A DNA stretch of 64,000 nt from Topomyia yanbarensis. Lineage: Eukaryota > Arthropoda > Insecta > Diptera > Culicidae. Each line of letters starts with the position of its first letter. The stretch's first letter is position 1. The stretch spans positions 2,976,001 to 3,040,000 of the forward strand of contig NC_080672.1 in assembly GCF_030247195.1 (NCBI RefSeq). Direction: 5' to 3'. Below, one piece after another: positions 7,441 through 57,200 of this stretch. The notes under the pieces are model-generated. The model was given only the letters and a program-made list of their open reading frames with translations. It did not search any database and was not told the DNA's origin. The position numbers were made by a program, and so were the translations under genes.

Positions 7441-8001
7441 GCGATATTCATTAATGTTTCATATGTTTTTCAACATTTGAAAACATTTACATAGTTATTT
7501 ACTGAAATGAATACATTTTCGATATTCGCATGGTCGTTATAGGCAAGGGATTTGTGAAGTCTCTTTTGCCGGCGTCGGTGGTAAAACATGATGCTGAGTT
7601 ATGTTCTATCATTGACTATGCGGTAGATGTGGATGCAACTCCTACTTAACAGAAGGCAAAGGATTCTTCACATTTCCTTTCGATCATGTCCACATGAGCC
7701 TGCCTAGTCCTAGTTTTCCGTTCTAAGTTTATAACTGATTCACTCTAGAATACCTGTCCGTCTTTCAATTTCATTGCTTTCATTTCTCTTAGTCTTAAAT
7801 TTGCCGAAAATAGCCAACAAAATCGATACAGATATTCAATTGAATGAGTCACACAGACTGTTAATTGAATATTTGTTCCATTCTGTACCATTCGCATCAG
7901 TTTCATTCTTAGCAGTCAAAAAATCTTCGATTTTTTTACAAATATGGCGTCAACTCATCAGACAAATACTCTTTGACTGATTTCTTCTATTTGTTCTCCA
8001 G
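7441..8001. other. Region upstream of the OBP exon; signal-peptide exon not found
   Basis: A Plus-C OBP needs a 5' exon coding for a secretion signal. I searched this interval on the plus strand. The only candidates (the ATG near 7436 giving MKAIFINVSYVF, and a non-ATG frame from 7774) lack a convincing signal peptide with a donor in phase. The exon may lie further upstream, beyond the retrotransposon. Confidence 0.4.
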
Positions 8002-8541
8002 AACCCAGCCGAATGCTGCGACACCCCAATGCTTATGGATAAGGAAATCATGATGGACTGCTACAAAAAGTACGGCGAACAAACTAAACGACAGATGAAG
8101 ATGGAAGGAATTCCTCGGGGTTGCGTAAGTATAGACACATTCCATGTTCGAATAAATTCAAATCTAACCATTAACAAATTACAGTGCATTGCCGAGTGCG
8201 GACTGAACGCAACCGGACTCTACTCGAACGGTATGATCCACCGGGAGGACATGACCAAAATGTTCATGGACTCGGTCAAGGATATGCCCCAGTGGCAGCC
8301 GCTGGTTCGGGACACCCTGGACGAATGCTTCAAGATGGCCGAATCGATGATGGATCAAATCGAGGCCGGTGCCAAGCTGGAGCCCAGTTTCGAGGGGGAA
8401 CAAATCTGCCATCCCATCTCCGGGACGATTCTACGCTGCATGGGAATGAACATGTTCGCGAAATGTCCAGCCGGAATATTCAAGGAAGGTGACGAATGCA
8501 ACCAGCTGCGGGAGTATTCCAAGATGTGTCCAATCATGTAA
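8002..8541 (+). CDS. Plus-C odorant-binding protein, two 3' exons (5' partial)
   Basis: A secreted carrier of small hydrophobic ligands, typically in sensory lymph. Exon A is 8002-8124, after the acceptor TTGTTCTCCAG. Exon B is 8185-8541 and ends in TAA. A 60-bp intron (GTAAGT...TTACAG) lies between them in phase 0. The visible 159 residues hold twelve cysteines: an AECC motif at the start, a CC pair formed exactly at the splice junction followed by IAEC, then DEC, IC, RC, KCP, DEC and MCP. The CC-x-x-EC block and the Pro after a late Cys identify the Plus-C class. An in-frame stop at 7978 shows that the upstream sequence is intron. The signal peptide exon is missing from view. The 60-bp intron is a multiple of three with no in-frame stop, so retention would insert 20 residues. 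A possible polyadenylation signal AATAAA is at 8840-8845. Confidence 0.88.
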   Translation, partial: NPAECCDTPMLMDKEIMMDCYKKYGEQTKRQMKMEGIPRGCVSIDTFHVRINSNLTINKLQCIAECGLNATGLYSNGMIHREDMTKMFMDSVKDMPQWQPLVRDTLDECFKMAESMMDQIEAGAKLEPSFEGEQICHPISGTILRCMGMNMFAKCPAGIFKEGDECNQLREYSKMCPIM

Positions 8542-9786: not shown

Positions 9787-10768
9787 ATGATAAAACTCGG
9801 AAGCGTTTCTGTTCGTTCTATTTCATTAGTGATCTTAAGTTTATCGTACGTTCTAAGTGATACCTGTCCAGTTTATTTGACCCTATCGTCACTCTCGAGA
9901 CACATAGAGAACGCTTCAGTGGTCATAAACTGGGGTCCCGATTGTGAAAGTCCACCCGATTGGATAGGACTCTACACGGAAAACCCAGCGATATCCAATG
10001 ATCCTCCCACAGTTAAAGTGATCGTCAATGGACAAACGTCCGGAGAAGTCATCACTGAACAAAAATTTGGAAAACAACGTTTACCGGGAGGGTGGAATTT
10101 CGAAGAAGTCCTCAGACACATCCCGAAACGTCGGGCCAAACCATTATGCTTCGGTTTCTATCTAGTAAGCTACGACAAAAACAACGAACTGCAAACATTT
10201 GAATGTCTGAAAATTCAACCAAACTGGATGTTCACCGAAGGCAACATCGGAAACGTATCGCTGAAGGATCTTTTCCTCCCGGGAACCCACTGTTCAGCCT
10301 GTTATCAGACTAAAGCCAATGTGAATAACGTCTTCCTCAAACGAGCTGGCTACCGGCAGGATCTAGACATATGGACTCAACTAGTCTTCGGAATCCGATA
10401 TCTGGACTTTTCAATCGGTTATCATCCGTCTCATAATGGAACCCGAAATTTCTGGATTATGAACGAAAGCTACCGAGTGGGATCGATCATTCCCATTCTA
10501 CAGGACATACGCCGCTTCGTCATCCTATCGGAGGAATCAGTTTTCCTAGATTTCCGACGTTTCCCGCTTGGCTTCCATAACCATCCCGAGCAGCATGCCG
10601 AATTCCTCCAAATTTTAGATCAAGAACTGGGTGACCTCATCTACCGTCGGCCCAACTTTGGCAACGAAGAGAAGGACGAAAGGCAATCCCATCATCTGAC
10701 GATGGCACAGATGCGCCAGGAGGGAAAGTATATTCTTGTCACGTACAGTCACGCGGCCAGTCTGAATG
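9787..10768 (+). CDS. Secreted PI-PLC X-domain protein, coding exon 1
   Basis: The protein starts at the ATG at 9787, which opens a signal peptide (MIKLGSVSVRSISLVILSLS, then YVLSDTC). An upstream in-frame GTG at 9775 is not a credible start. An N-terminal beta-rich domain (INWGPDCESPPDWIGLY) precedes the PI-PLC X domain. The first catalytic region is LFLPGTHCSAC with its His, followed by GIRYLDFSIGYH and VFLDFRRFPLGF. The second His normally found in the family is not seen: NFWIMNESYRV stands where it is expected. The exon ends at 10768 in phase 1 with donor GGTAAGT. Reading on gives only a (GCG)n alanine tail and a stop, so this is intron. It joins in phase to 38125-38567, giving 453 residues in all. 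The intron holds the alpha-L-fucosidase gene on the other strand. Confidence 0.88.
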
Positions 10769-19079: not shown

Positions 19080-19745
19080 AGCTAAATAAAATAAATGAAA
19101 TGAATAAAATAAATAAAATATATAAAACGAATAAAATGAAAAATAAAAAAACGAATAAAATGAAAATTATAAATAAAAAGTTAAATGAAAAGATAAAATA
19201 AATAATATGGATAACATTAACACTATCAATAAAATTAATTGAATGAATAAAGTAAAAAAATGAAAAGAAATTTTTTTTAAAAAAACAGAATGTAAGAAGT
19301 AAACGATTAAAATGAAAATTGAAAGGTATTAAACTAGTTTTACAATTAATAGAATAAATTAATTATGTCAATAATAATTTAGAGAAATTATTAAAGTGTT
19401 TCAGTCATCCACTTTAATAATTTCTCTAGTAATAGTAAGATTATTGAAATGAAGAAAATGAATAAAATGTATGAACTGAAAAAAGAATAAAATGCATACA
19501 ATAAAAACAGTGAACAAAACAAATTAAATGAAATATATGATCAAAATGAATCCAAAGAATGAGACGAACAAAATAGATACAATGTACCCAAATGAAGAAA
19601 ATAAAAAAAAAAATGCTGAATATAAGAAATGATTTCAATGAAATGATCATATATTCAAAATCACCCAAATATTCAAAATGAATAAAATAAATGAATAAAC
19701 TGAAAAATGAATATATTGAATGAAATTAAAAAAATAATATTTAAA
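19080..19745 (+). repeat. Long degenerate (AATAAAATGAAT)n tail
   Basis: About 660 bases of A-rich low-complexity sequence composed of AATAAA, ATGAATAA and AAATGAA words follow directly on the RNase H element. It looks like a grossly expanded retrotransposon tail. A small dyad at 19380-19437 (AGAGAAATTATTAAAGTG against CACTTTAATAATTTCTCT) interrupts it. Confidence 0.6.
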
Positions 19746-19754
19746 CAAAATAAA

Positions 19755-20022
19755 TTCTATGCTATATTTCACCCTAAGGCGGAAAATTTGGTAAAAACCA
19801 AAATTTCTCACTAGGGTGAAAATTTGTTGGTAAAACCAGTCTTTGCACGAGGGCACAAATCCTTATTTCATACTCAGTTGTGTTTTGGCTTCGCCTCATC
19901 AGAAACCGACACTAATTTATTTTCGGGATGGATTAACGCCGGCTGGAACAAACAAATTTTTACCCTAGTGAGAAATTTTAGTTTTTACCAAATTTTCCTC
20001 CTTAGGGTGAAATATAGCATAG
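19755..20022. mobile_element. Foldback MITE with about 75-bp arms
   Basis: The left arm begins TATGCTATATTTCACCCTAA and continues GGAAAATTTGGTAAAAACC. The right arm ends with the complementary TTAGGGTGAAATATAGCATA. The loop includes the inverted, decayed hammerhead copy. A related sequence is present at 48400-48515 (CCCTAAGGAGAAATATTGGG; GGGCACAAATCCT). Confidence 0.7.
19876..19950 (-). ncRNA. Decayed hammerhead ribozyme copy
   Basis: The minus strand repeats the sequence of the ribozyme at 20157-20231: CCGGCGTTAA, TTAGTGTCGGTTT, CTGATGA and GGCGAAGCC are all present. However, the conserved G after stem II is replaced (AAAAC for GAAAC), and the region of the cleavage triplet has lost a base (TTGTTCC for TTGCGTC). 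It is probably inactive. Confidence 0.7.
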
Positions 20023-20156
20023 TGCTTTCGCATAGGCCTAGTAAGCCAAGACAAGTTTCGGCTTCACTGTGTTTCATCGGCATAAACAGAACTTCTGCTC
20101 GAACGTTTGATCAGTCGTTCGATTGAAACACAAAGTGTGTTTTAGTTTTAAGGGAT

Positions 20157-20231
20157 TTGCGTCAAGCCGGCGCTAATCTATTCCGACAATAAGTTAGTGT
20201 CGGTTTCTGATGAGGCGAAGCCGAAACGCAA
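20157..20231 (+). ncRNA. Complete type III hammerhead ribozyme
   Basis: Every element of a hammerhead can be paired by eye. Stem III is TTGCGT (20157-20162) with ACGCAA (20226-20231), 6 bp. The cleavage triplet is GTC, so cleavage would follow C20163. Stem I is AAGCCGGCGCTAA (20164-20176) with TTAGTGTCGGTTT (20194-20206), 13 bp including three G-U pairs, closed by a 17-nt loop. The core CTGATGA is at 20207-20213. Stem II is GGC/GCC with loop GAA (20214-20222). The conserved GAAA is at 20223-20226. Stem III is the open helix, making it type III. An A-rich run (TATAAAATAAATGAATAAAA) follows closely, as in the 3' end of a small retroelement. The structure is seen directly; self-cleavage is inferred. 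Confidence 0.85.
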
Positions 20232-20259
20232 CTGAGTATAAAATAAATGAATAAAACGA

Positions 20260-21035
20260 ATTATGCTAATTTGAAAAACCATTATTTCAAATTATAGAAT
20301 TGTTTGTAAAAAATTAAGTATACAATGCACTTCCTAGTGTTTTCATTCTTTTTTGTTTTCACCTTTTCATGTTCGTTCTTCTTTTCTTGACGGCGTTCAA
20401 GCTTATCTGTGGTGTTTCTACTTTATTGATAGGGTCTAACTGGTTATTCGGAAATCGGAATAGTAAATGATGGTTAGTGCTGCGACACTAATTTCATGTA
20501 TTATACGATATTTTGATACCTTCCAGCCATATGATAAATAAGAAAACTGGTAATTTTTGCACCGTGACCAGTATAAAATAAATTTTACAAAAGAAATCGA
20601 ATTTTCACTAGAATTTTGGGATTCAAAATTAAAGATCCTCCCGATGATGCCACGAGTATAATAGGATATAAATTATGGGAAATTTACTGTCTCGCTACTA
20701 GGTGGATTACTTGGTGATCTGTCTTCATATACCATCGAAGTTCTACCTCACGGCTGAACTCAATGCTTCATCCAAGGGGTAAACATATCAACTATGAAAA
20801 AAATTACTTTGAAGTGAACTTATACATTATTTTGTTTTGAAGTGAATTTACATATTAATTTTGAAAAAATAGTTCATTTCTTATTGAGTAAAGCCACAAA
20901 ATATCTTCGGAATCTTGTGGATGTGTTTTCATGCACCTATATTCGAAATCGGTTTAGTTTTACCCCTAAAACACCAGTAAGGTATTGAAAATGGGTAAGT
21001 GAAGAATAAAAATATAAAATGTTTAATATCTCCGC
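20260..21035. other. AT-rich intronic sequence, nothing recognised
   Basis: No coding signal was seen. Confidence 0.4.
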
Positions 21036-27837: not shown

Positions 27838-29527
27838 TTATTGCTTGCTTGAGGACAGCACAATCTTCAACGTCCAGGCAAGTTTAAGCTGGAGCCGATC
27901 AATCTCATTTTTGGGCGGAAATTCCACCTGAATACCCTTATCTGTTGGTTTCCACTGAAAAAAAAAAATATTGTCACACATCGAACGTTAAACCGAATTT
28001 ACCCGAATATTGCTTACCCTTAAACTGGTGTTAAACCCTAGCATTGAAATCTGCACAACATTTGCATACATTTCACCGAAGGCTCCCAATTGCACATTAT
28101 TAGATTTATAAGGGTAGTTCAGCACCATAGCGTAGACGTTGCTAAAACCTACTTCACTCTCGTAAGCTGATGAACTCTTCGTAGTATACCAAACATCCGA
28201 TGTCAGTGTGTCGTTCTGATACACCCACGGTTTAGACTTGTAAATTGCTTCCCCATTAGTTTTAAGCCACCTAAAAAGTATACTTATCGATGCAACAGTA
28301 GATTAAAACCAATCACTTCACCTTACCTGCCCATATCAGTCAAACGCTCGGCAAATATCGGATCAATCGTCCCGTACTTGGTAGGACCCACATTGATAAG
28401 AATATTACCCCCGCAACTCACAGTACTAGCAATCTCAGCAATCAATTCCGAAGAGCTCATAAAATCTTCCAACTTCGCATTCTGACGGTGGCCCCAGCTC
28501 ATCTTATCGATTGTCATGGCATTCTCCCATTTGTGCGTCTGAAGAACCCCTATCGAATGCATTCAGTGTCAATCAAATGCAAAAAATAGAAATTATTAGA
28601 TAACACTCGTACCCGGATTGTAACGATCGGAGCAAGTGTAAAAGTCTCCATGCAAACACAGCGTCCCAATTCCCCAGCGATCGTTCGTCACCACGGTATC
28701 CCTGACGGGTGATTCGTTGTACAGCCAGGTGAAGAATTCCTTTGCCTTCCAATAGCCATCCGGTGCCTCCCAATCGCCGTCACTCCAAAGAACCTCCGGT
28801 TTGTACGAATTGATCAGTTCCTTCAACTCTGGCCATACCTTGCTGTCAACGTAGTCATGCTTGAGAAAAGCGTGCAACTTATCGTCGTGATAGAGCCGAT
28901 TGAACCATTCAAATAATGAGTAGTAAACGCCAAAGGTGAGATTTGAGTTCTTTCGAATAGCAGTCGAAAGTTCGCCGATAATATCCCGGTGTGGTCCTAC
29001 GTCCACTGAATTCCAACTGTAGGTGTACTTTGAAGGCCAAAGAGTGTACCCCTCATGATGTTTACTGGTTAACACTACGTACCGAGCTCCGGATTGGGCA
29101 AACAGTTCAGCCCATTCGGTGGCGTTGAATAATTCCGCAGTGAAATCCCGTGCAAAATCTTGATAGGTGAAGTCCGGCTTGTAGTTATTGGCCATATAGT
29201 TTACGTAGGCGTCGTACTTATAACCTAAAGAAAATCGTTTTACTTTAATTGAAATACAGGATGAGTTTTGTCACCTTTCCAATTGATCCAAAACCACTCG
29301 GATCCATAGCTAGGCACCGCGTAGACTCCCCAATGAATGAAAATACCAATTTTCGCATCGTCATACCACTTCGGAAGAGGTCGCGAATCCAAACTAGCCC
29401 ATGTCGGTTCATATTTGTCTACTTTCTTCTCCTTCGTTAAGCGATTATTACGCCTCACAGAACTACCGATAGTCAACTGAATCCATATCACTAGAAAAAA
29501 TAACAAATGTCTCAAACGCACCGCCAT
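27838..29527 (-). CDS. Alpha-L-fucosidase (GH29), five exons, complete
   Basis: A secreted or lysosomal glycoside hydrolase removing alpha-L-fucose from glycans. The minus-strand exons are 29527-29275, 29224-28613, 28549-28327, 28270-28018 and 27954-27838. All junctions are GT-AG and all phases agree, giving 1458 nt and 485 residues, the usual family length. The start at 29527 opens a signal peptide ([20 protein letters not shown]); an ATG upstream at 29695 in the same frame lacks one. GH29 landmarks are [44 protein letters not shown] with the expected nucleophile Asp, [20 protein letters not shown] and [11 protein letters not shown]. The C-terminal beta domain follows and the protein ends LSSSKQ. 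The gene lies wholly inside the large intron of the plus-strand PI-PLC gene. The introns are short (50-65 bp). Confidence 0.95.
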
Positions 29528-29554
29528 TTCTGCGTTGATTGAGCGCTGGACAAT

Positions 29555-29567
29555 GACTGATAACTGA
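29555..29567 (-). promoter_or_regulatory. Candidate initiators of the fucosidase gene
   Basis: The minus strand reads TCAGTTATCAGTC, two overlapping-style matches to the arthropod initiator TCAGTY. They would give a 5' UTR of about 30-40 nt before the ATG at 29527, which has a good context (CAGAAATGG). Confidence 0.35.
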
Positions 29568-29699
29568 ACTGGATGACACCGAGGATGGAACTGTACTGAA
29601 GATTGATTCTGTGTGCAGTCGCGCTTGAGATTGATCTGTTGAAGGCAATTCTGGAAGATTACTGGGGTGGATCTCTCATTCAATGCGAAATGCATGCTG

Positions 29700-30780
29700 A
29701 AGAGGAACTCTTGAACTGGATTGTCTAATTTTCAACGTATTGTATTGACATTAAATTAAAAGAATTTCAAAGTAATAATTTTAAAAAATTGATGACTAAA
29801 AAGTGTAATTATTGCAATCTATTATTGTTGTATAAACAAGAAGTTACGGAATGAGTATTTTTTCAACACGAGTTTTACAGATTTATCATGCTATATAAAT
29901 ACGACGAGAACAAAAAGAATCGAGCTTTGCAATTTTTTTGGAATTACAAAAAATATTCTATCATTAGTAACTATGTGCATTAACCAATCAGAATATTCCA
30001 GATTCCTGAAGGTTATCCATGCCTACAACCAAAACTTTTTGATCCAAGTAGGCTTTGAAATGACTGTTTTAATTTTTCTAGCTTCCACCAGAATATGTCC
30101 ATACTAGGAAACCTCAGGAATTATTCCGGATGAGTGATTTCAAATTAGTTTCGTCTAATGACATTATTATTTTGCATAAAAGTACATTCCAATACAATTA
30201 TGCTTTTTCAATCATATCATTCCAAAACAGGTATTCCTAATTCAATAGAGATACGAAAATTTTAAAAAGCGCTCGTGGGATGCCTCTCTTTAAAATTTTC
30301 CTCTTCAAACATCCATATTACCCAATTGGAGATACCCAAGAATATCCTTAATTATAGTAGGAAAGACTGAGGAGACTTGATCCCTGGGGAGTCTTGATCC
30401 CATCATCGTAACGCAAAGTCGGATTAGAAAACATTAATCGAATATACTAGAAAGTTGCGCAGTTTTATCTAAATATACAAAAAAATTGAAAATGTTCAAC
30501 AAAATTTTAACCGATATAAAAAGAAGAACAGAACATACGAAAATTTATTTTCTAAATTTTCGAACTTTCATAGAATTGATAAAATGGAAAACTACAATCG
30601 GGCGCTCCAATTATAGCACTAGCATCTGAGCCAATGCCTTGAGCAAAGATAACAGATGCTGTTTTAACCTAAGGCTTCAAATGGGTAGGGTGATAATAGA
30701 AACAGGGCAAAAATAGACTCATTACATTCAACCAATTTCATAGCCCAAAAAATGAGACGAATTTTATTATTTTTATATTT
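29700..30780. other. Intronic AT-rich sequence
   Basis: No coding potential is recognised. GACTTGATCCCTGGGGAGTC near 30370 resembles a repeat scrap near 2190 (GGGGAGACTTGACTAAG). Confidence 0.35.
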
Positions 30781-37845: not shown

Positions 37846-38124
37846 CGTTTAACTGTCGACTATTTTAGTTGATATTTATACAAACCACGGTATCCTCAAA
37901 TGAACATGCCACTAAAATTTTCAGTTTCACATTGTATACCTAATCGTCGTAAATTATCACTCTAGAAATTGTATTCTGATCAAAGTTTGAAATCTGTTAT
38001 ACTATGCAATACGAACCCATCCAACTTGAATGCAACCTTGCAAACAACTAAATTGAATTCATTCAAGTATAGATGTCTCCACAATGCTACTTTTAGTGAT
38101 GCTTAATACCTCTTTCTCTTTCAG

Positions 38125-38567
38125 AATCCGATCTGATATGGGCACCGTGGAAGAAACATTCCAGCTCGTTTTTGAAACACACCGAACTCGGCGAGTTCAT
38201 GAAAAATTTATTCTCTCAAAAACATCCGGATGCCCCGAAAGATATCAGCTGGAGCTTCTACGGTGTTCAAGGATTACAAAGTAGCTACGTATGTCCAAAC
38301 CAAATTATATGATTGCATCGAAACATGATACTAACCATTATCTCTTTGTAGAGTCCCGACGAGAGCTATATGCTGCCAAAGGAACGCGCAAATTTAATCA
38401 ACCCAAAGCTGATGACAATGCTCGGAGGGCCATGGAGCCTGCGAGCCAACGCCGTTCTCTTGGACTATTTTACCAACACTAATCTGATTGACATGGCCGT
38501 TCACACAAATCGTTACAAAACACTCAAGAGCTTAGGCGACGAGGCTGTCGTGTTGGATATTCAGTAG
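38125..38567 (+). CDS. Secreted PI-PLC X-domain protein, coding exons 2 and 3
   Basis: Exon 2 (38125-38288) follows the acceptor CTCTTTCTCTTTCAG. Its first two bases complete the split Glu codon left by exon 1 at 10768 and give SDLIWAPWKKHSSSFL. It ends in phase 0 at a GTATGT donor. Exon 3 (38352-38567) follows TCTCTTTGTAG, reads SPDESYMLPKERANLINPKL and ends GDEAVVLDIQ, stop at 38565-38567. Together they form the C-terminal third of the PI-PLC X protein. The exact phase match and total of 1362 nt (454 codons) support joining across the 27-kb intron. An unseen middle exon is possible but not required. Confidence 0.8.
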
Positions 38568-38829: not shown

Positions 38830-40750
38830 CAGACGTCACTGTAACTAGATACAACTACCCGTTCTCCGCTGATTGAACAACCAGAACAACCCAACCGCAG
38901 TATTTTCCCACAATTTTATTTTTATCCGGCTTCTTCCCATCGATCATGAATATTTCTACATCCACAACCCAGGTAGTAGGCACTGCAAAAACCTCTTACT
39001 AATCACAACACACCGTTCGTCTCCACCGGCGCCATGTTGGGAGTGGAGTACCCTTTCACTCGGGTGGTGGCAGCAAGCCATAACAATTCATTATCCATTC
39101 ATCCGGGTGCCATTTAATGAGCGATCCATACCTACCTACCTACATGAGTCTCGTCGCCCGGTTGGGTTGAACTACGGGAGAGCCCGTCACATCGCCGATA
39201 TGATGTGTGCTCGCTGTGCAACAAATATAATCGTTTAAGCTGGGATAACCATCCACTGCTTAAGGGTAGGAGGCAAATAAATTGGATTTACCGTTAGATG
39301 ATTTTTTCCCACTCTAAAGGCCTGCAGCAGGAAAAGTTGTTGGTATTCACTATTTAAGGCTTGCTGCATGCAGCCTTTCGATTGTGGTTATTAATGCATC
39401 TGACAGCGATATATCATACATTCATTCATTTATTCGTCCCAACCGACGACTGCATGCTGGGGATTCGTGGTAAGGAGACAGTTCCAATCTCGGCGATGGT
39501 ATTAGCGAACGGTGATTGTTTGATGTTATGTAAGATCATAAATCAGTGGAGTTTGTTGGTGAATGGCGCTCCGAAGCTGGTTGAACTGCAGATGTTGATG
39601 CTGAGCGATCGTGCCTCGCTTAGGGACCCCGTGAATCACGACTAAAATCGGTACAGTTTGGGAAGATTTAAACTTAATACATATCTCGAATATTCCAGGA
39701 TGTAAACAAGGGTCCTTTCTGGACCTTATTTGCACAATTTGCTTTAATAAAAACAAAGCAACTATATTATTATACAAATCAGGAAGAGAAAAACTCCCTG
39801 ACTGATCAGTCGCACCTACAACCCTACCCACAGCTTACAATGCGCCTCTGCTGTCGTAGCTCTGGCTCCAGTGTACACGTTCAAACATTACCCTCTAGTA
39901 CCGTACAGCAGTGGCTTTCGTCGCTTGTATGTGCTAGCAAACAATCGCCATTCAACGATCGACAATGCAACTTCATGAGTCGGCGTCTGTCGCCAGCACT
40001 CGATATAAATAGGTGTAGGTACGTATGATAAAGCCATAAACGAATGGAGAACCACATTCCAACCGAGGCCGTCTAGGTTGTACACTTACCTTTATACCGG
40101 CTTACAGTCAGCATTAGTCAGGCTTAGAACACGCTCTGAAACGAAATACAAGATAGGGGGTTCTCAGCAGTTTCTAGTTAGTAGAAACTCTAAAGCAGAG
40201 GTAGGTCTGATGAAAGGGGTTACACTATACTAAAATACTGCAGCTGAAAATGATTTCGGAGCTGTAATGCGTAAATACAGTCATTGATAATATGCCAATT
40301 AGACACGTTTTTGTATTTTCCATTTGAGGTCGTCATACAAGACCATACTGAAAGTATCAAGGGGCGCCAGTTCCGGAAGACAGAATATATACAGTTGAAA
40401 AACACGGAGACTTGCTCAACTTCACCCACTTGGAAATGATTATGACGAACTACAAACACATGCAGAATTTACAGATGTTGAACAAACTAATTACTTTTCT
40501 GAGTAAAGCTTTGATTTGATACAATTTGCATCTCATTATTTTTGAGCAAATCGAAATTCGTTCGAAAATCGAGAAATTTGCGTTTCGATTTAGTCTCATT
40601 AGTATCTGATACTATCTTAGCGCCAAAGAGAGGCCAAAATAAATAAAGAAAAATGTAGGTACAGAAGTGCTGTTTGTTGATGAGAAACATTGAAATGAAA
40701 AAAGGTAGCTCGGGCTAGTGAATCAATGCATAGAACGCCATGATTTAATC
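38830..40750. other. Unique-looking, GC-richer sequence
   Basis: This stretch downstream of the PI-PLC gene lacks visible repeat signatures and is GC-richer than its surroundings (for example CACCGGCGCCATGTTGGGAG). It could hold regulatory sequence. The ORFs here show no domain. Confidence 0.3.
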
Positions 40751-45114: not shown

Positions 45115-45304
45115 ACTCCGATATAAAAAGAAATAAGGGGACCTTCTTCTGGATTCGGCGGAAAATCAAAGCAATGTTTGAGATTTTTTTGTGGAAAAAT
45201 GAAAAGACATACGAACTTCTGCTCAGAGTTCCACGAAATAATGACTATCACTTTTCTTCAAAATGTACGTAAAACTTCGGTCACAAATCAAAACGATCGT
45301 CTTT

Positions 45305-47026
45305 AAATTCCGAGAAGTCGACTGACGGATCAAATGTCGATGGGTCCACTGGCTTCGGTATCTTCAGTAATACTATCACCGCTTCATTCAAGCTCAATGA
45401 TCCTGCTTCAGTTTACGTCGCAGAGTTAGCTGCAATTCAGTACACCCTTGGGATCATCGACACTCTGCCCACAGATCACTACTTCATTGTTTCGGACAGC
45501 CTCAGCTCTATCGAGGCTCTTCGTGCGGTGAAGCCCAAAAAGCAATTCCCGCATTTTCTGGGGAAGATACAGGAATCCTTGTGTACGTTATCTGAAAAAT
45601 CTTATCAGATTACCTTTGTTTGGGTCCCCTCTCATTGCTCTATCCCGGGCTATGAAAAGGCCGACTCATTAGCAAAGGTGGACGCATTAAATGGTGACAT
45701 ATACGAAAGACCAATCTGCTTCAACGAATTTTTTAGTATTTGTCGTCAGAGGACGCTCAACAGTTAGCAAACCTCGTGGAGCAATGGGGAACTTGGACGA
45801 TGGCTACATTCGATTATCCCAAATGGATCAACGAAGCCTTGGTTCAGGGGGATGGATATGGGTCGGGATTTTATTCGTGTAATGTCCCGACTTATGTCCA
45901 ATCACTACACCATGGATGCGCATTTGCGGCGTATTGGGCTTGCGGAAAGTAGTCTGTGCGCTTGTGACGAGAGCTATCACGACATCGAGCACGTTGTCTG
46001 GGTATGCCCCGGGTATTGTGACGCCAGGTCTCAGTTAAAGGATTCCCTTCGGGCCCGAGGTAGACCACCCAATGTACCAGTTCGAGATATGCTGGCAACT
46101 CGTGATTTCCCCTATATGTCCCTTATTTATACTTTCATAAAAACGATAAATATCCCAATTTAGCCCCTCTCTTTTTATTTCTCGATTTTAGAGTTTCCTC
46201 CTGCCTTGTGGAACCGATCAGCTCAAGAGTGCCACTATGTAACCGCCGTGCGTCGCCCTTACCACTACGCCATAGAAGGAAACTGAAGCGAGAGCGACTC
46301 GAGGTCCGATGACTTTTGAAGGATTCCCCGCGGGTCCGTTGAATACCATCCGCCAATCCGGTACTCGACGACTTACTAGACTGAGGCGCAAATTTGTTTC
46401 GCTGATCCCCCCCCCCCCTTTTGAGCGAAAGTTGCAAGTTTTGCTCTTCTTTCCCTGTCACCATATGCCTTCTCTCCCCTGTCCTTGATACAACTGCTGC
46501 TACACTGATGCGGAAATAAGCCACCCTCTGAATATCTTGACCAAGCATAAGTTTTCGTTAAAAAAATCAAATTAGTATTCTGTATTCCTAGTTTTAAGAT
46601 AGCTATAATTTTTACTCTTTATTGAAACTCTTGTCCTCCATCTTGTAAATAGAATTGTATCCCTAGTTTTAAGATATCTGTGAAATTTCTCATAAATATT
46701 TGTTCCCCCTTTTGTGTACTAAACTATATTGTTAGTTTTAAGATAACTGTAAAATATTTCGTAAAATACTATTACTCCCCCTCTTGTATATCAAACTGAA
46801 TCCCTTGTTTTAAAATTTTTCATAACAAAATCTTTTGGCCCTCTCTTGTATATTGAATCTTATTTCTAGTCTTAAGATAGCTGTTATCTTTCTTTTCTTT
46901 TGTAAAAAAAAATATTTCAACATTGTAACCTCCTAGTTTTAAGATATCCAAAATGTAAAAACAAAAGAATTTGGCACCGCCAAGCTAACGCATTTGTTCC
47001 TATCAAATAAACGAAATGAATAAAAA
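45305..47026 (+). mobile_element. 5'-truncated non-LTR retrotransposon, RNase H end
   Basis: A perfect 15-bp duplication, AAAACGATCGTCTTT, flanks the insertion (45290-45304 and 47027-47041). The coding part reads TDGSNVDGSTGFGIF, YVAELAAIQYTLG, FIVSDSLSSIEAL and FVWVPSHCSIPGYEKADSLA, the complete RNase H signature with its D-E-D residues and His. A frame change near 45765 leads to CDESYHDIEHVVWVCPGY, the C-terminal Cys-His block, and a stop near 46163. The 3' UTR has tandem units and ends in an A run. RT and endonuclease are lost by 5' truncation. It belongs to the I/R1/Loa group by architecture. Confidence 0.88.
46570..46950 (+). repeat. Tandem repeats in the retrotransposon 3' UTR
   Basis: About six units of roughly 60-80 bases are marked by CCTAGTTTTAAGATAGCT and CTCTTGTATAT. 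Confidence 0.75.
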
Positions 47027-48299: not shown

Positions 48300-48580
48300 G
48301 CAGTTCTGCTTTTGATCTTTTATTCGTTATTTTCGTTAATCAGAAAATGATTTTTTTTCGAAAATCCAAAATGGCGGCTTCAAAATGACACTATGCATTC
48401 CTTTCCCTAAGGAGAAATATTGGGTAAACACCAGAATTTCTCTCAAAGGCGAAAGGGCACAAATCCTAACTTAACAAAGTCATGGGTCAATTTTCGCCCT
48501 AGGCAGAAATTTTAGATTTTCGAAGAAAATAATCATTTTCTAATTATCGATAAATAACGAATAAAAATTCAAAAGCAGAA
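48300..48580. repeat. Inverted repeat pair
   Basis: GTTCTGCTTTTGATCTTTTA and the following 45 bases near 48302 are inverted near 48505-48577. The loop (48400-48515) resembles the MITE at 19755. Confidence 0.6.
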
Positions 48581-48660
48581 GTTCTTCGTTTTTCCACAAA
48601 AAAAATCTCAAATATTGCTTGATTTTCCGTCGAATCCAGGGGAAGTTCTCTTTACACAGC

Positions 48661-54699: not shown

Positions 54700-56400
54700 T
54701 TATTTATTTATTTAATCTTATTTTTCATCTGACCTGTGTTGGTCTACATGAAATGTTTCTAGAATGGGAAAAGCCCATTTCAGGATATACCTCAGAAGCA
54801 ATCCTCAAATGGGCGTAAAAACCCATCATCTTTTCAAATTTTTCACAGTTGATTACAATGATTTTACACTACAATTAAACTTAATCACATAGTACACAGT
54901 ATTGCAAGAACAAAAATTACAAATATTACAAAAATGGAATCTTAAAATCTAAGTCAACCTTCTTAGTCTATTTTTGAAAACATAACAAGATACAGAAAAG
55001 TCAAAATGGTCATAAACACTCTCAGCGTACTCTGTGCGCTGAAATTCCAGTCTTAAGAAGTTAAGCGATCTGAGATTTCTAGGGGGCACATAGATATTTA
55101 TTTGTGAGAGAATATCTGGAGCATCTATTTGACCAGTTAATATCTTCCCAACAAATACTGCTCTAAATGTGTTCCGCCTTTTCGCTAGGGTTTCCATATC
55201 GAGCAGACGACAGCGATCGATGTACGGTGGTAGCTCTGCTGGGTTACGCCATGGGAGAGTTCTAAGAGCAAAACGGAGGAATCTTGCCTGCACTCGGTTG
55301 ATCCAAATGCTCGTATAAGGACACCAAACGGGTGCTGAAGCTTCCAGGATAGATCGAACTAGTGAGAATAGAGTGCCCGTAAACAATATGGATCAGTGAA
55401 TTCTTTGGCGATTCTTATAATGAAGCCGAGGTTTCTATTTGCCTGTGCTATAACATGAGAGTAATGATTTCTGAATGTCAGTTGTGAGTCCAGGAGTACT
55501 CCGAGGTCTCTGATAACTGTCATTCTCTCTAGCGATTCCCCTGAGATGGTGTAGCTCCAGAGTATTGGATTTTTTCTGCGAGTAAAAGATATTATGGAAC
55601 ATTTGGCCACGCTGAGAGCCAGCAAGTTGCGACTACACCAATTACAAAAAGCATCTAAGTGTCGCTGAAGTGCCACGCAATCTTCTATTGACCGCACAAT
55701 GGGAAATAGTTTGAGATCATCAGCGTATATAAATTTACACCCTGGAGGTATAACATAGCAAACGTCATTGAAGAACAACGAAAAAAGCAACGGTCCTAGA
55801 TTGCTCCCTTGAGGCACTCCCGACAAGTTAATGAAGCTGTATGACTCGCTATTTCCTAATTTTACAGATAGAGAACGATTTACGAGATATGATTTAAGCC
55901 ACCCTGTGAAATTTGACGAAGCGCCCAGCCGCTTTATCTTTGCCAGTAGAAGAGAGTGATCTACACGATCGAATGCAGCCTTGAGATCCGTGTATACAGT
56001 ATCGACCTGAGATCCAACTTCAATATTTTTAATACAGAGCGAAGTGAATTGGGCTAGATTAGTAGTTGTCGATCTGCCTGAAAAAAAGCCATGTTGATCT
56101 TTCGATATGTATGCTTTGGTCTCCCGAAACAGCACGTTTCCTACTAATATCTCAAATAACTTTGATCCAGCGCAGAGTGAGGTTATGCCACGATAGTTCG
56201 CAACATTTTGCTTATCACCTTTTTTAAAAACGGGAAACATAACTGATTTTTTCCAACACACGGAAAACGCCGATTGCAACAGTGATTGATTGAAAATTAG
56301 CCTTAAAGGCGCACACAATGCGCTTGCGCATCTTTTCAGTATAATGGAAGGAATACCATCTGGTCCTGCTGATGTTGAAGACTTTAGCTTTCTTATGGCA
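54700..56400 (-). mobile_element. 5'-truncated CR1/T1-like non-LTR retrotransposon
   Basis: A minus-strand copy begins inside the RT near 56400. After the coding part (stop at 54949) a 3' UTR of about 240 bp ends in (TAAA)n at 54700-54715. The microsatellite tail and RT type suggest the CR1 group, to which mosquito T1 and Q elements belong. No clear duplication is visible. Confidence 0.75.
54949..56400 (-). pseudogene. Reverse transcriptase of the CR1/T1-like element
   Basis: The minus strand reads KSSTSAGPDGIPSIILKR near 56390, then VFKKGDKQNVANYRGITSL, KDQHGFFSGRSTTTNL, TDLKAAFDRVDHSLLLAKI, SGVPQGSNLGPLLFSLFFND and KFIYADDLKLF. The polymerase YADD motif is intact and is followed by thumb motifs (LGVLLDSQLTF). 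A frame shift near 55375 separates the RT from the C-terminal part (ILEASAPVWCPYTSIWINRV, then IDRCRLLDMETLAKRR), which ends NRLRRLT. No RNase H domain is present. The endonuclease is lost by 5' truncation, and the frame shift makes the copy inactive. Confidence 0.88.
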
Positions 56401-57200
56401 TATAAAGAAATAAGAAAATAAGAATAAATAGAAATATAAAGAATGACTTTCCGTATATAAGTTTATTAATTGATAATTTAATTTTTATAACTAGTCATTT
56501 GAAAGAGGTGCTTTTTAACATATTTTTTTTACTTTGAATTACATTATTCCACAATTTTCTAGACTGAGCTGGAGCTTGAGAGCTTGTGCGACCACCCCTG
56601 GCTGCTACTCCGCTATCGATCTGGGCTGGCTGAAGTAGCAACTTTTTGAGAAAACTAATTTTTAAAATCATAATTTTTGCTCATATTTTACCTTAAAAGT
56701 GTCGAAAACTAGAAAAAATCTTTTTTAATAGACGTCAAACATCAGTTCTGATAGAACTGTAATGTTGTGAGTGATAAATTTAACGAAAATAAAGCAGATG
56801 TTACGCAAAAACGTGAATTTCAGAAGAATTTTATAATAATCGCTATAACTTTGTTACTTGAAGATATAAAGCTTAACTGTCTTCAACAAACTAACGTATT
56901 TACGAACGTTCTAAAACTTTGCAGAAGACACCAAACCTCTATGATACGAAATAAAGAAGCTAACATCGCAGCGCCACCTATGCGGTGAAAATCTAACCTA
57001 ATTTACATCTTCAAAGTAAGGCGCAGATGAAACCAAGATACTTTGCTGAACATAGCAACTAAAAAAATGCACTCCCAAAGCGCTACAGGTTTTGTCTTAC
57101 TAATTTTCGTTCCCATCCCACTGTGCAGTGATAGGAAGCTAGGCTGGGCCAAAACAGGACGGAACAATTATGTTTCAGCAAAAAAGACAACAAGGGACGA
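56401..57200. other. Spacer with a possible repeat scrap
   Basis: A GC-richer patch (56565-56640) contains GACCACCCCTGGCTGCTACT and CGCTATCGATCTGGGC and may be an element scrap. No gene is visible. Confidence 0.3.

Follow-up and report, generated by a model that had tools for sequence, protein, structure and literature searches.

The motif at positions 20157–20231 of the window (the whole 64,000-nt stretch of Topomyia yanbarensis DNA that was analysed) is, on sequence comparison, a genuine type III hammerhead that belongs to a young and abundant mosquito repeat resembling retrozymes. We favour, with moderate confidence, the reading that it is the ribozyme of a non-autonomous retrozyme-like repeat with a 342-nt tandem unit, inserted through two-ended priming by an enzyme supplied in trans.

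The features that define membership among type III hammerheads are present: CUGANGA...GAAA, UH at the cut, three stems and an open stem III. The first-pass annotation had described closing stems of 6, 13 and 3 bp, an exact CUGAUGA/GAAA core with a GUC triplet, and type III topology. Base-by-base checking confirmed all pairs, the core at 20207-20213 and 20223-20226, and the triplet at 20161-20163 (U16.1 at 20162, C17 at 20163). Since stem III is the open stem, the hammerhead is of type III, and the position of GUC places the expected cut between 20163 and 20164. Membership in the type III hammerhead family is, in our judgement, nearly certain. The parts of the motif are as follows.

20157..20231, plus strand: hammerhead ribozyme motif, type III (base-by-base pair check)
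20157..20162, plus strand: 5' strand of stem III, pairing with 20226-20231 (6 of 6 pairs)
20164..20176, plus strand: 5' strand of stem I, pairing with 20194-20206 (13 of 13 pairs, 3 of them G-U)
20207..20213, plus strand: core CUGAUGA, exact
20214..20222, plus strand: stem II, GGC-GAA-GCC, 20214-20216 with 20220-20222 (3 of 3 pairs), GAA triloop; covaries in relatives
20223..20226, plus strand: GAAA box, its last A pairing with 20162

Chance assembly of such a motif had been called very unlikely, and simulation agrees. Under a strict descriptor (at least 4 pairs in stem I, 3 in stem II and 4 in stem III), 20157..20231 was the sole match in the 64-kb window on both strands. Order-2 Markov sequence (398 Mb) produced 70 strict matches, none of equal quality. 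Order-3 Markov sequence (4,889 Mb) produced 1,153, or 0.015 per 64 kb, and a single one of these combined a stem I of at least 10 pairs with a stem III of at least 6. We also counted copies with a conserved core across the 1.168-Gb assembly, a check that the annotation had proposed. The pattern CTGATGA-N9-GAAACGC (core, stem II and GAAACGC) occurred 8,729 times, compared with 2 for a reversed-pattern control, and the hammerhead-spanning pattern GCGTC-N25..55-CTGATGA-N9-GAAACGC occurred 4,229 times, compared with 0. The Markov simulation and the genome counts against reversed-pattern controls together exclude chance or a palindrome artefact.

A further check, an Infernal search with Rfam, failed to give a match above threshold. 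At the gathering threshold there was none in the window and none in 10 further loci with relatives (10 of 60 loci scanned), and a permissive scan returned Hammerhead_3 at 18.7 bits (E 1.4) against a cut-off of 48.5. The Rfam gathering score reflects a model and does not define the ribozyme biochemically. We give the missing match little weight, as copies with covarying stems exist by the thousand outside the Rfam model. Alternative folds compete with the predicted hammerhead: under an energy model that has no term for the hammerhead core, minimum free energy was -27.0 versus -26.7 with the hammerhead constrained for 20155-20233 (stem III pair probability 0.47), and -29.8 versus -26.7 for 20150-20240 (0.009).

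Copies of the element are numerous and closely similar. A DNA search yielded 965 first-look candidates, 40 of which were scored, with 48 matches listed; among the matches listed, most were 98-99% identical and ended near 20246. Excluding 17 of 69 matches that do not span the hammerhead left 52 full hammerhead copies in 40 loci (including the duplicate loci L005 and L006), and because these were drawn from the 40 scored of 965 candidates, the sample favours young copies. The core, GAAA and GUC are retained in 43 of the 52 and all tested features in 40, and 25 of the 52, with the window copy included, are identical over 79 nt. Pieces longer than 150 nt (46 pieces) diverge from the majority by a median of 1.8%. 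Among the listed hammerhead-spanning matches, the young copies form near-identical groups that differ ahead of the 3' strand of stem I (AATAAG, AATGTG, AATACG), a pattern suggestive of recent amplification in several lineages. Relatives may number in the tens of thousands, mostly decayed, by naive scaling of a small and clustered sample: of twenty 10-kb stretches taken at round coordinates, 7 contained the 14 relatives that a motif model detected at E<=1 (worst 0.0042). Searches of viral contigs and of prokaryote contigs, from which records close to the genome of the window may be missing, gave 0 matches.

In the 40 loci, the 342-nt unit runs as hammerhead (u1-85), a region x, a hairpin termed the A-hairpin (about u119-193) and a region y. 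Cores on the same strand were spaced by 342 nt in 7 of 11 cases and by 684 nt in 1 of 11, with the others at 322, 339 and 532 nt. The unit length (e.g., L012 754-1095) is a multiple of three. Read as a circle, the longest open frame of the unit is 106 codons, in one copy, and the family is apparently a non-autonomous, non-coding retrotransposon-like repeat. At the joint of reverse and forward segments in L014 (1252-1305) we observed a hammerhead-like motif whose stem I is strongly shortened (31.2 bits), and a motif resembling it lies at 6633-6673 of L057. A second ribozyme, encoded on the unit's minus strand, was considered and rejected, as the reversed y region (CCGAUGA...GAAAC) has U4 altered and stems II and III that do not close by eye. 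The y region is taken instead as the predicted pairing partner of the ribozyme core.

Stem pairing has been maintained across diverged relatives. Covariation within the young family (52 copies) was not useful, so diverged copies were needed. Identical strings were removed before the tests, and every test given here leaves in the effect of shared ancestry. One comparison of relatives combined 20 sample loci and 3 of the 40 family loci with the window itself (24 sources). Among 27 distinct sequences, 90.8% of cells pair, compared with 83.5% (sd 0.8) when shuffled, and two-sided changes occur in 14 of 22 pairs, compared with 7.4 (sd 1.7). This alignment was fitted to the model, and its covariation score of 0.293 drops to at most 0.104 when partners are slid; a sequence-only alignment gave 87.7% paired and 35 two-sided cells, compared with at most 40.5% and 9 when slid. 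Each stem contributes, with 94.5% paired versus 86.6% shuffled in stem I (0 of 2,000 shuffles as high), 92.5% versus 80.4% in stem II (0 of 2,000) and 82.5% versus 76.3% in stem III (1 of 2,000).

The genome-wide matches show the same tendency. Among 100 listed of the 8,729 matches, the central pair of stem II is A-U 57 times and G-C 32 times and does not form in the remaining 11, and 39 distinct stem II strings among the matches listed form 91 of 117 pairs, compared with 80.9 when shuffled (3 of 5,000 as high). For stem I, the 43 distinct listed hammerhead-spanning strings form 381 of 430 pairs, which 0 of 2,000 shuffles reach. One stem III pair is C-G in 4,229 matches genome-wide and mismatched C-A in 174 (two cells of a 2x2 count), from which we draw no conclusion. 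Compensatory changes in stems I and III, which the annotation had suggested looking for, are present in diverged copies.

We judge the family hammerhead likely to be catalytically active. Stem I is an unbroken 13 bp and stem II a minimal 3 bp with a triloop, so that a contact between loops I and II is not evident by eye and predicted cleavage may be slow. The lack of an evident contact would also suit a hammerhead that no longer cuts, whether retained as a structural signal (e.g., to bind reverse transcriptase) or surviving as a recent fossil. In favour of this account, one insertion end point lies just 3' of the hammerhead, and a tested Aedes hammerhead was inactive in vitro, according to the portion of the report consulted (PMC3088659). 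Against this account, core, GAAA and GUC are unchanged in 43 of 52 copies, and the stems covary while the core stays. Those unpaired letters are required by catalysis, not by hairpin binding, and they speak against a mere signal; we consider this account improbable and an active hammerhead the better reading.

In the window, the hammerhead sits in a head-to-head insertion within an intron of a PI-PLC-like gene. The insertion, its relatives in the window and the flanking exons are as follows.

19757..20246, no single strand: whole head-to-head insertion, reverse plus forward segments, within the PI-PLC intron
19757..19947, minus strand: reverse segment, with broken hammerhead (19863-19947), x and second A-hairpin (19757-19831)
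19948..20161, plus strand: forward segment preceding the hammerhead, with A-hairpin (19948-20022) and y region (20023-20161)
20162..20246, plus strand: H segment, unit positions u1-85; the copy ends at 20246
40576..40638, minus strand: decayed hammerhead relative (model R1, 23.3 bits, E 0.0005)
48405..48520, no strand assigned: decayed relative of A-hairpin and x, no hammerhead seen (blastn pieces, 80-84% identity)
9787..10767, plus strand: PI-PLC X domain-like exon, by homologue names, upstream of the insertion
38115..38564, plus strand: following exon or exons of the same gene, closing the 27-kb intron

The broken reverse hammerhead (19863-19947) is 89% identical, with G12 and the cleavage triplet altered. 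As a whole the insertion contains nested inverted repeats of 85 and 75 nt, the 85-nt inverted copy sitting 214 nt upstream of the hammerhead. Such an arrangement could come from a foldback DNA transposon (MITE) whose inverted repeats resemble a hammerhead by accident. We abandoned this idea after other copies proved to be direct 342-nt tandem units; the chance level, genome counts and covariation also contradict it, and we find it scarcely credible compared with a retrozyme-like repeat. The flanking repeat of the window insertion is only 7 to 9 nt, in AT-rich DNA, and is not decisive. AT-rich DNA at 19380-19428 holds a perfect 19-nt inverted repeat with an 11-nt loop, and by eye a larger inverted repeat (48304-48586) surrounds the A-hairpin relative at 48405-48520.

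The PI-PLC name derives from several homologues titled PI-PLC X domain proteins; the nearest listed relative of the product of exon 9787-10767 is from Malaya genurostris (91% identity), with Sabethes cyaneus at 84%, in support of the mosquito host named in the annotation, probably a sabethine; a Pfam search of this exon returned 0 families. Because the following exon with a match starts at 38115, the hammerhead is placed within a 27-kb intron, in sense orientation; its location in a PI-PLC intron agrees with the first-pass annotation. The same intron holds an alpha-L-fucosidase-like gene on the opposite strand (28596-29731, minus; Pfam PF01120, in two pieces), and an odorant-binding-protein-like gene (OBP47_like, 7981-8538, plus) lies just upstream of the PI-PLC exon. 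Elsewhere in the window are retroelement fragments with reverse transcriptase and RNase H, at 55362-56462 (minus) and 45273-45767 (plus), and a tRNA scan gave 0 hits.

Two parts of the first-pass annotation concerned the relation of the motif to its surroundings. The A-rich end noted beside the motif is target DNA and not the tail of the element, since other copies end at the same unit positions beside unrelated, often non-A-rich DNA. The motif had also been proposed to process transcripts of either a small retroelement or the PI-PLC intron. The small mobile repeat stands, but an intron role is unlikely for the window copy, because in the predicted fold the 85-nt inverted copy captures the ribozyme. 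A transcript of 19750-20260 folds at -222 kcal/mol with reverse and forward hammerhead copies paired. Sense orientation in the 27-kb intron would permit processing of the PI-PLC intron, but the window copy is one among thousands, its inverted copy is transcribed first, and the hammerhead pair probability is 0 in the 19757-20260 fold. We regard processing of the PI-PLC intron as very improbable, and the window copy probably has no host role.

Insertion ends and flanks point to how copies may have been made. We analysed 38 loci, having dropped L005, whose flanks duplicate those of L006, and L016, which the locus edge truncates. At 16 of 38 loci a word of 9 nt or more is common to the left and right flanks, compared with 10 of 1,406 mismatched pairs, which we interpret as probable target duplications at those 16 loci; the other 22 lack a flank repeat of this length. 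The outer ends lie mostly at two unit positions, one directly following the hammerhead (about u78-89) and the other directly following the A-hairpin (about u191-202). By a short-motif end test, 19 of 38 insertions have both ends identified, always one u~81 and one u~193, head to head, while 19 show one end type only and 0 show two alike; this 6-letter test is loose, as random flank windows fire in 101 of 1,947 cases for u193 and 207 of 1,947 for u81. Both orientations occur in 18 of 40 loci (17 when the L005/L006 duplicate is counted once), always reverse then forward and with a variable joint. Several single runs have lengths close to one unit (335, 337, 340, 344, 355 and 357 nt), which is compatible with a circular template, and other runs are longer than one unit (e.g., 518, 620, 652 and 684 nt). 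From these end positions and orientations, priming from both DNA ends seems somewhat more probable than the alternatives taken together.

The same structures could be produced by an ordinary LINE, through target-primed reverse transcription and twin priming on linear multimeric RNA, with neither a Penelope-like enzyme nor circles and with the hammerhead merely trimming the transcript. LINE twin priming also gives reverse-then-forward structures and flank repeats, as found here, and runs exceeding one unit fit a linear multimer. However, twin priming leaves the inner template site variable, whereas half of the 38 insertions end at one fixed site of each kind, and right ends lack an A tail. We therefore consider mobilisation by an ordinary LINE unlikely, though it is the strongest of the competing accounts, and prefer two-ended priming at fixed sites.

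Folded as a circle, the L012 unit reaches -111.0 kcal/mol, compared with -74.7 (sd 5.1) for 60 shuffles, and its ribozyme core pairs with the y region, which would shield the circle from recutting. The minus-strand circle is nearly as stable (-102.1 versus -71.3, sd 4.5), so part of the fold stability is plain self-complementarity. For the life cycle we infer multimer cleavage, a circular RNA and a mobilising enzyme. In multimeric transcripts, each hammerhead would cut between u2 and u3, releasing 342-nt monomers; these would be circularised, and the ribozyme core would then be concealed by y-region pairing. Both target strands would be cut about 10 nt apart by a trans-acting enzyme, for which a Penelope-like reverse transcriptase/endonuclease is the likeliest candidate. 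Both DNA 3' ends would then prime on the RNA just 3' of two stable hairpins, at u~81 after the hammerhead and u~193 after the A-hairpin, and the two cDNAs would join head to head, the window copy being one such event in an intron. We can only tentatively propose that the mobilising enzyme is Penelope-like. The full proposal, an animal retrozyme lineage on a type III hammerhead, with thousands of copies in one mosquito and a 342-nt circular RNA that a Penelope-like enzyme copies at two fixed hairpins, starting from each of the target ends, is more speculative still.

A close parallel is the Penelope-like element PAc. In the sections of its description consulted, it cleaves both strands and extends them, with initiation at a site internal to the template (PMC11167929). 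Tandem copies, a hammerhead, internal start of reverse transcription and the cutting and extension of both DNA strands are shared with the mosquito repeat as we read it. Unlike PAc, which encodes its own enzyme, the 342-nt unit encodes none, being too short for a reverse transcriptase and GIY-YIG endonuclease, and the hammerhead type differs (PMC11167929). If the two-ended reading is true, the insertions themselves record two-ended priming. The family supplies thousands of insertions to read, and if the two-ended pattern holds across all copies, genome data alone would test both hammerhead RNA insertion and the role of a Penelope-like enzyme.

Type III hammerheads have been reported from insects before. 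In the excerpts consulted, most are described from plants and from small infectious RNAs and insects are mentioned only in passing; one review speaks of insect elements with type III hammerheads (PMC7761336). Those already known from flies, termites and HDV-like RNAs, as partly described (PMC7936874), share type III topology, a long helix I and occurrence in insect genomes with our motif. They differ in a pseudoknot formed by a first stem of 5 bp, a GCCR internal loop and a loop II of sequence YGGC, whereas the mosquito motif has an unbroken 13-bp stem I and a 3-bp stem II with a GAA triloop; the termite genomic copies are given as isolated motifs (PMC7936874). The first-pass annotation had called a type III form unusual, which is true for animal retrozymes, but type III hammerheads had already been described from fly genomes (PMC7936874). 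Aedes aegypti hammerheads in interspersed repeats, one of them inactive in vitro, were reported in 2011 (PMC3088659), and these resemble ours in host group, multiple copies and interspersed repeats. A figure legend there has loop III pairing in the dimer, and hence a closed stem III; on this comparison by description, the two families could be kin or identical (PMC3088659). Titles and abstracts of the open-licence literature held no type III retrozyme-like family in mosquitoes, which is weak evidence of absence.

Retrozymes offer the nearest comparison at the level of the whole repeat. Metazoan non-LTR retrozymes are described, in the part of the source consulted, as having type I hammerheads, units of 150-450 bp and demonstrated circles (PMC7229834). 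Like them, the mosquito family has short, low-GC tandem units (342 nt here), each containing a single hammerhead. It also shares with them a high copy number, target duplications of more than 4 bp when present, and a predicted stable circular fold (PMC7229834). Their hammerhead is type I and their circles are shown, whereas here it is type III and the circle is predicted only (PMC7229834); because of the type, we label the family retrozyme-like and not a member. Plant LTR retrozymes, as outlined in the portions available, share the type III hammerhead and non-autonomy but are 1-1.5 kb long with LTRs, a primer-binding site and 4-bp duplications (PMC7229834, PMC11722881). In the mosquito repeat the unit is 342 nt and the flank repeats measure about 9-13 nt, and its order is one of tandem units, not of LTRs and an internal region. 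A very abundant animal type III family with near-identical young copies bridges the type III hammerheads, mostly of plants and small infectious RNAs, and the type I retrozymes of animals.
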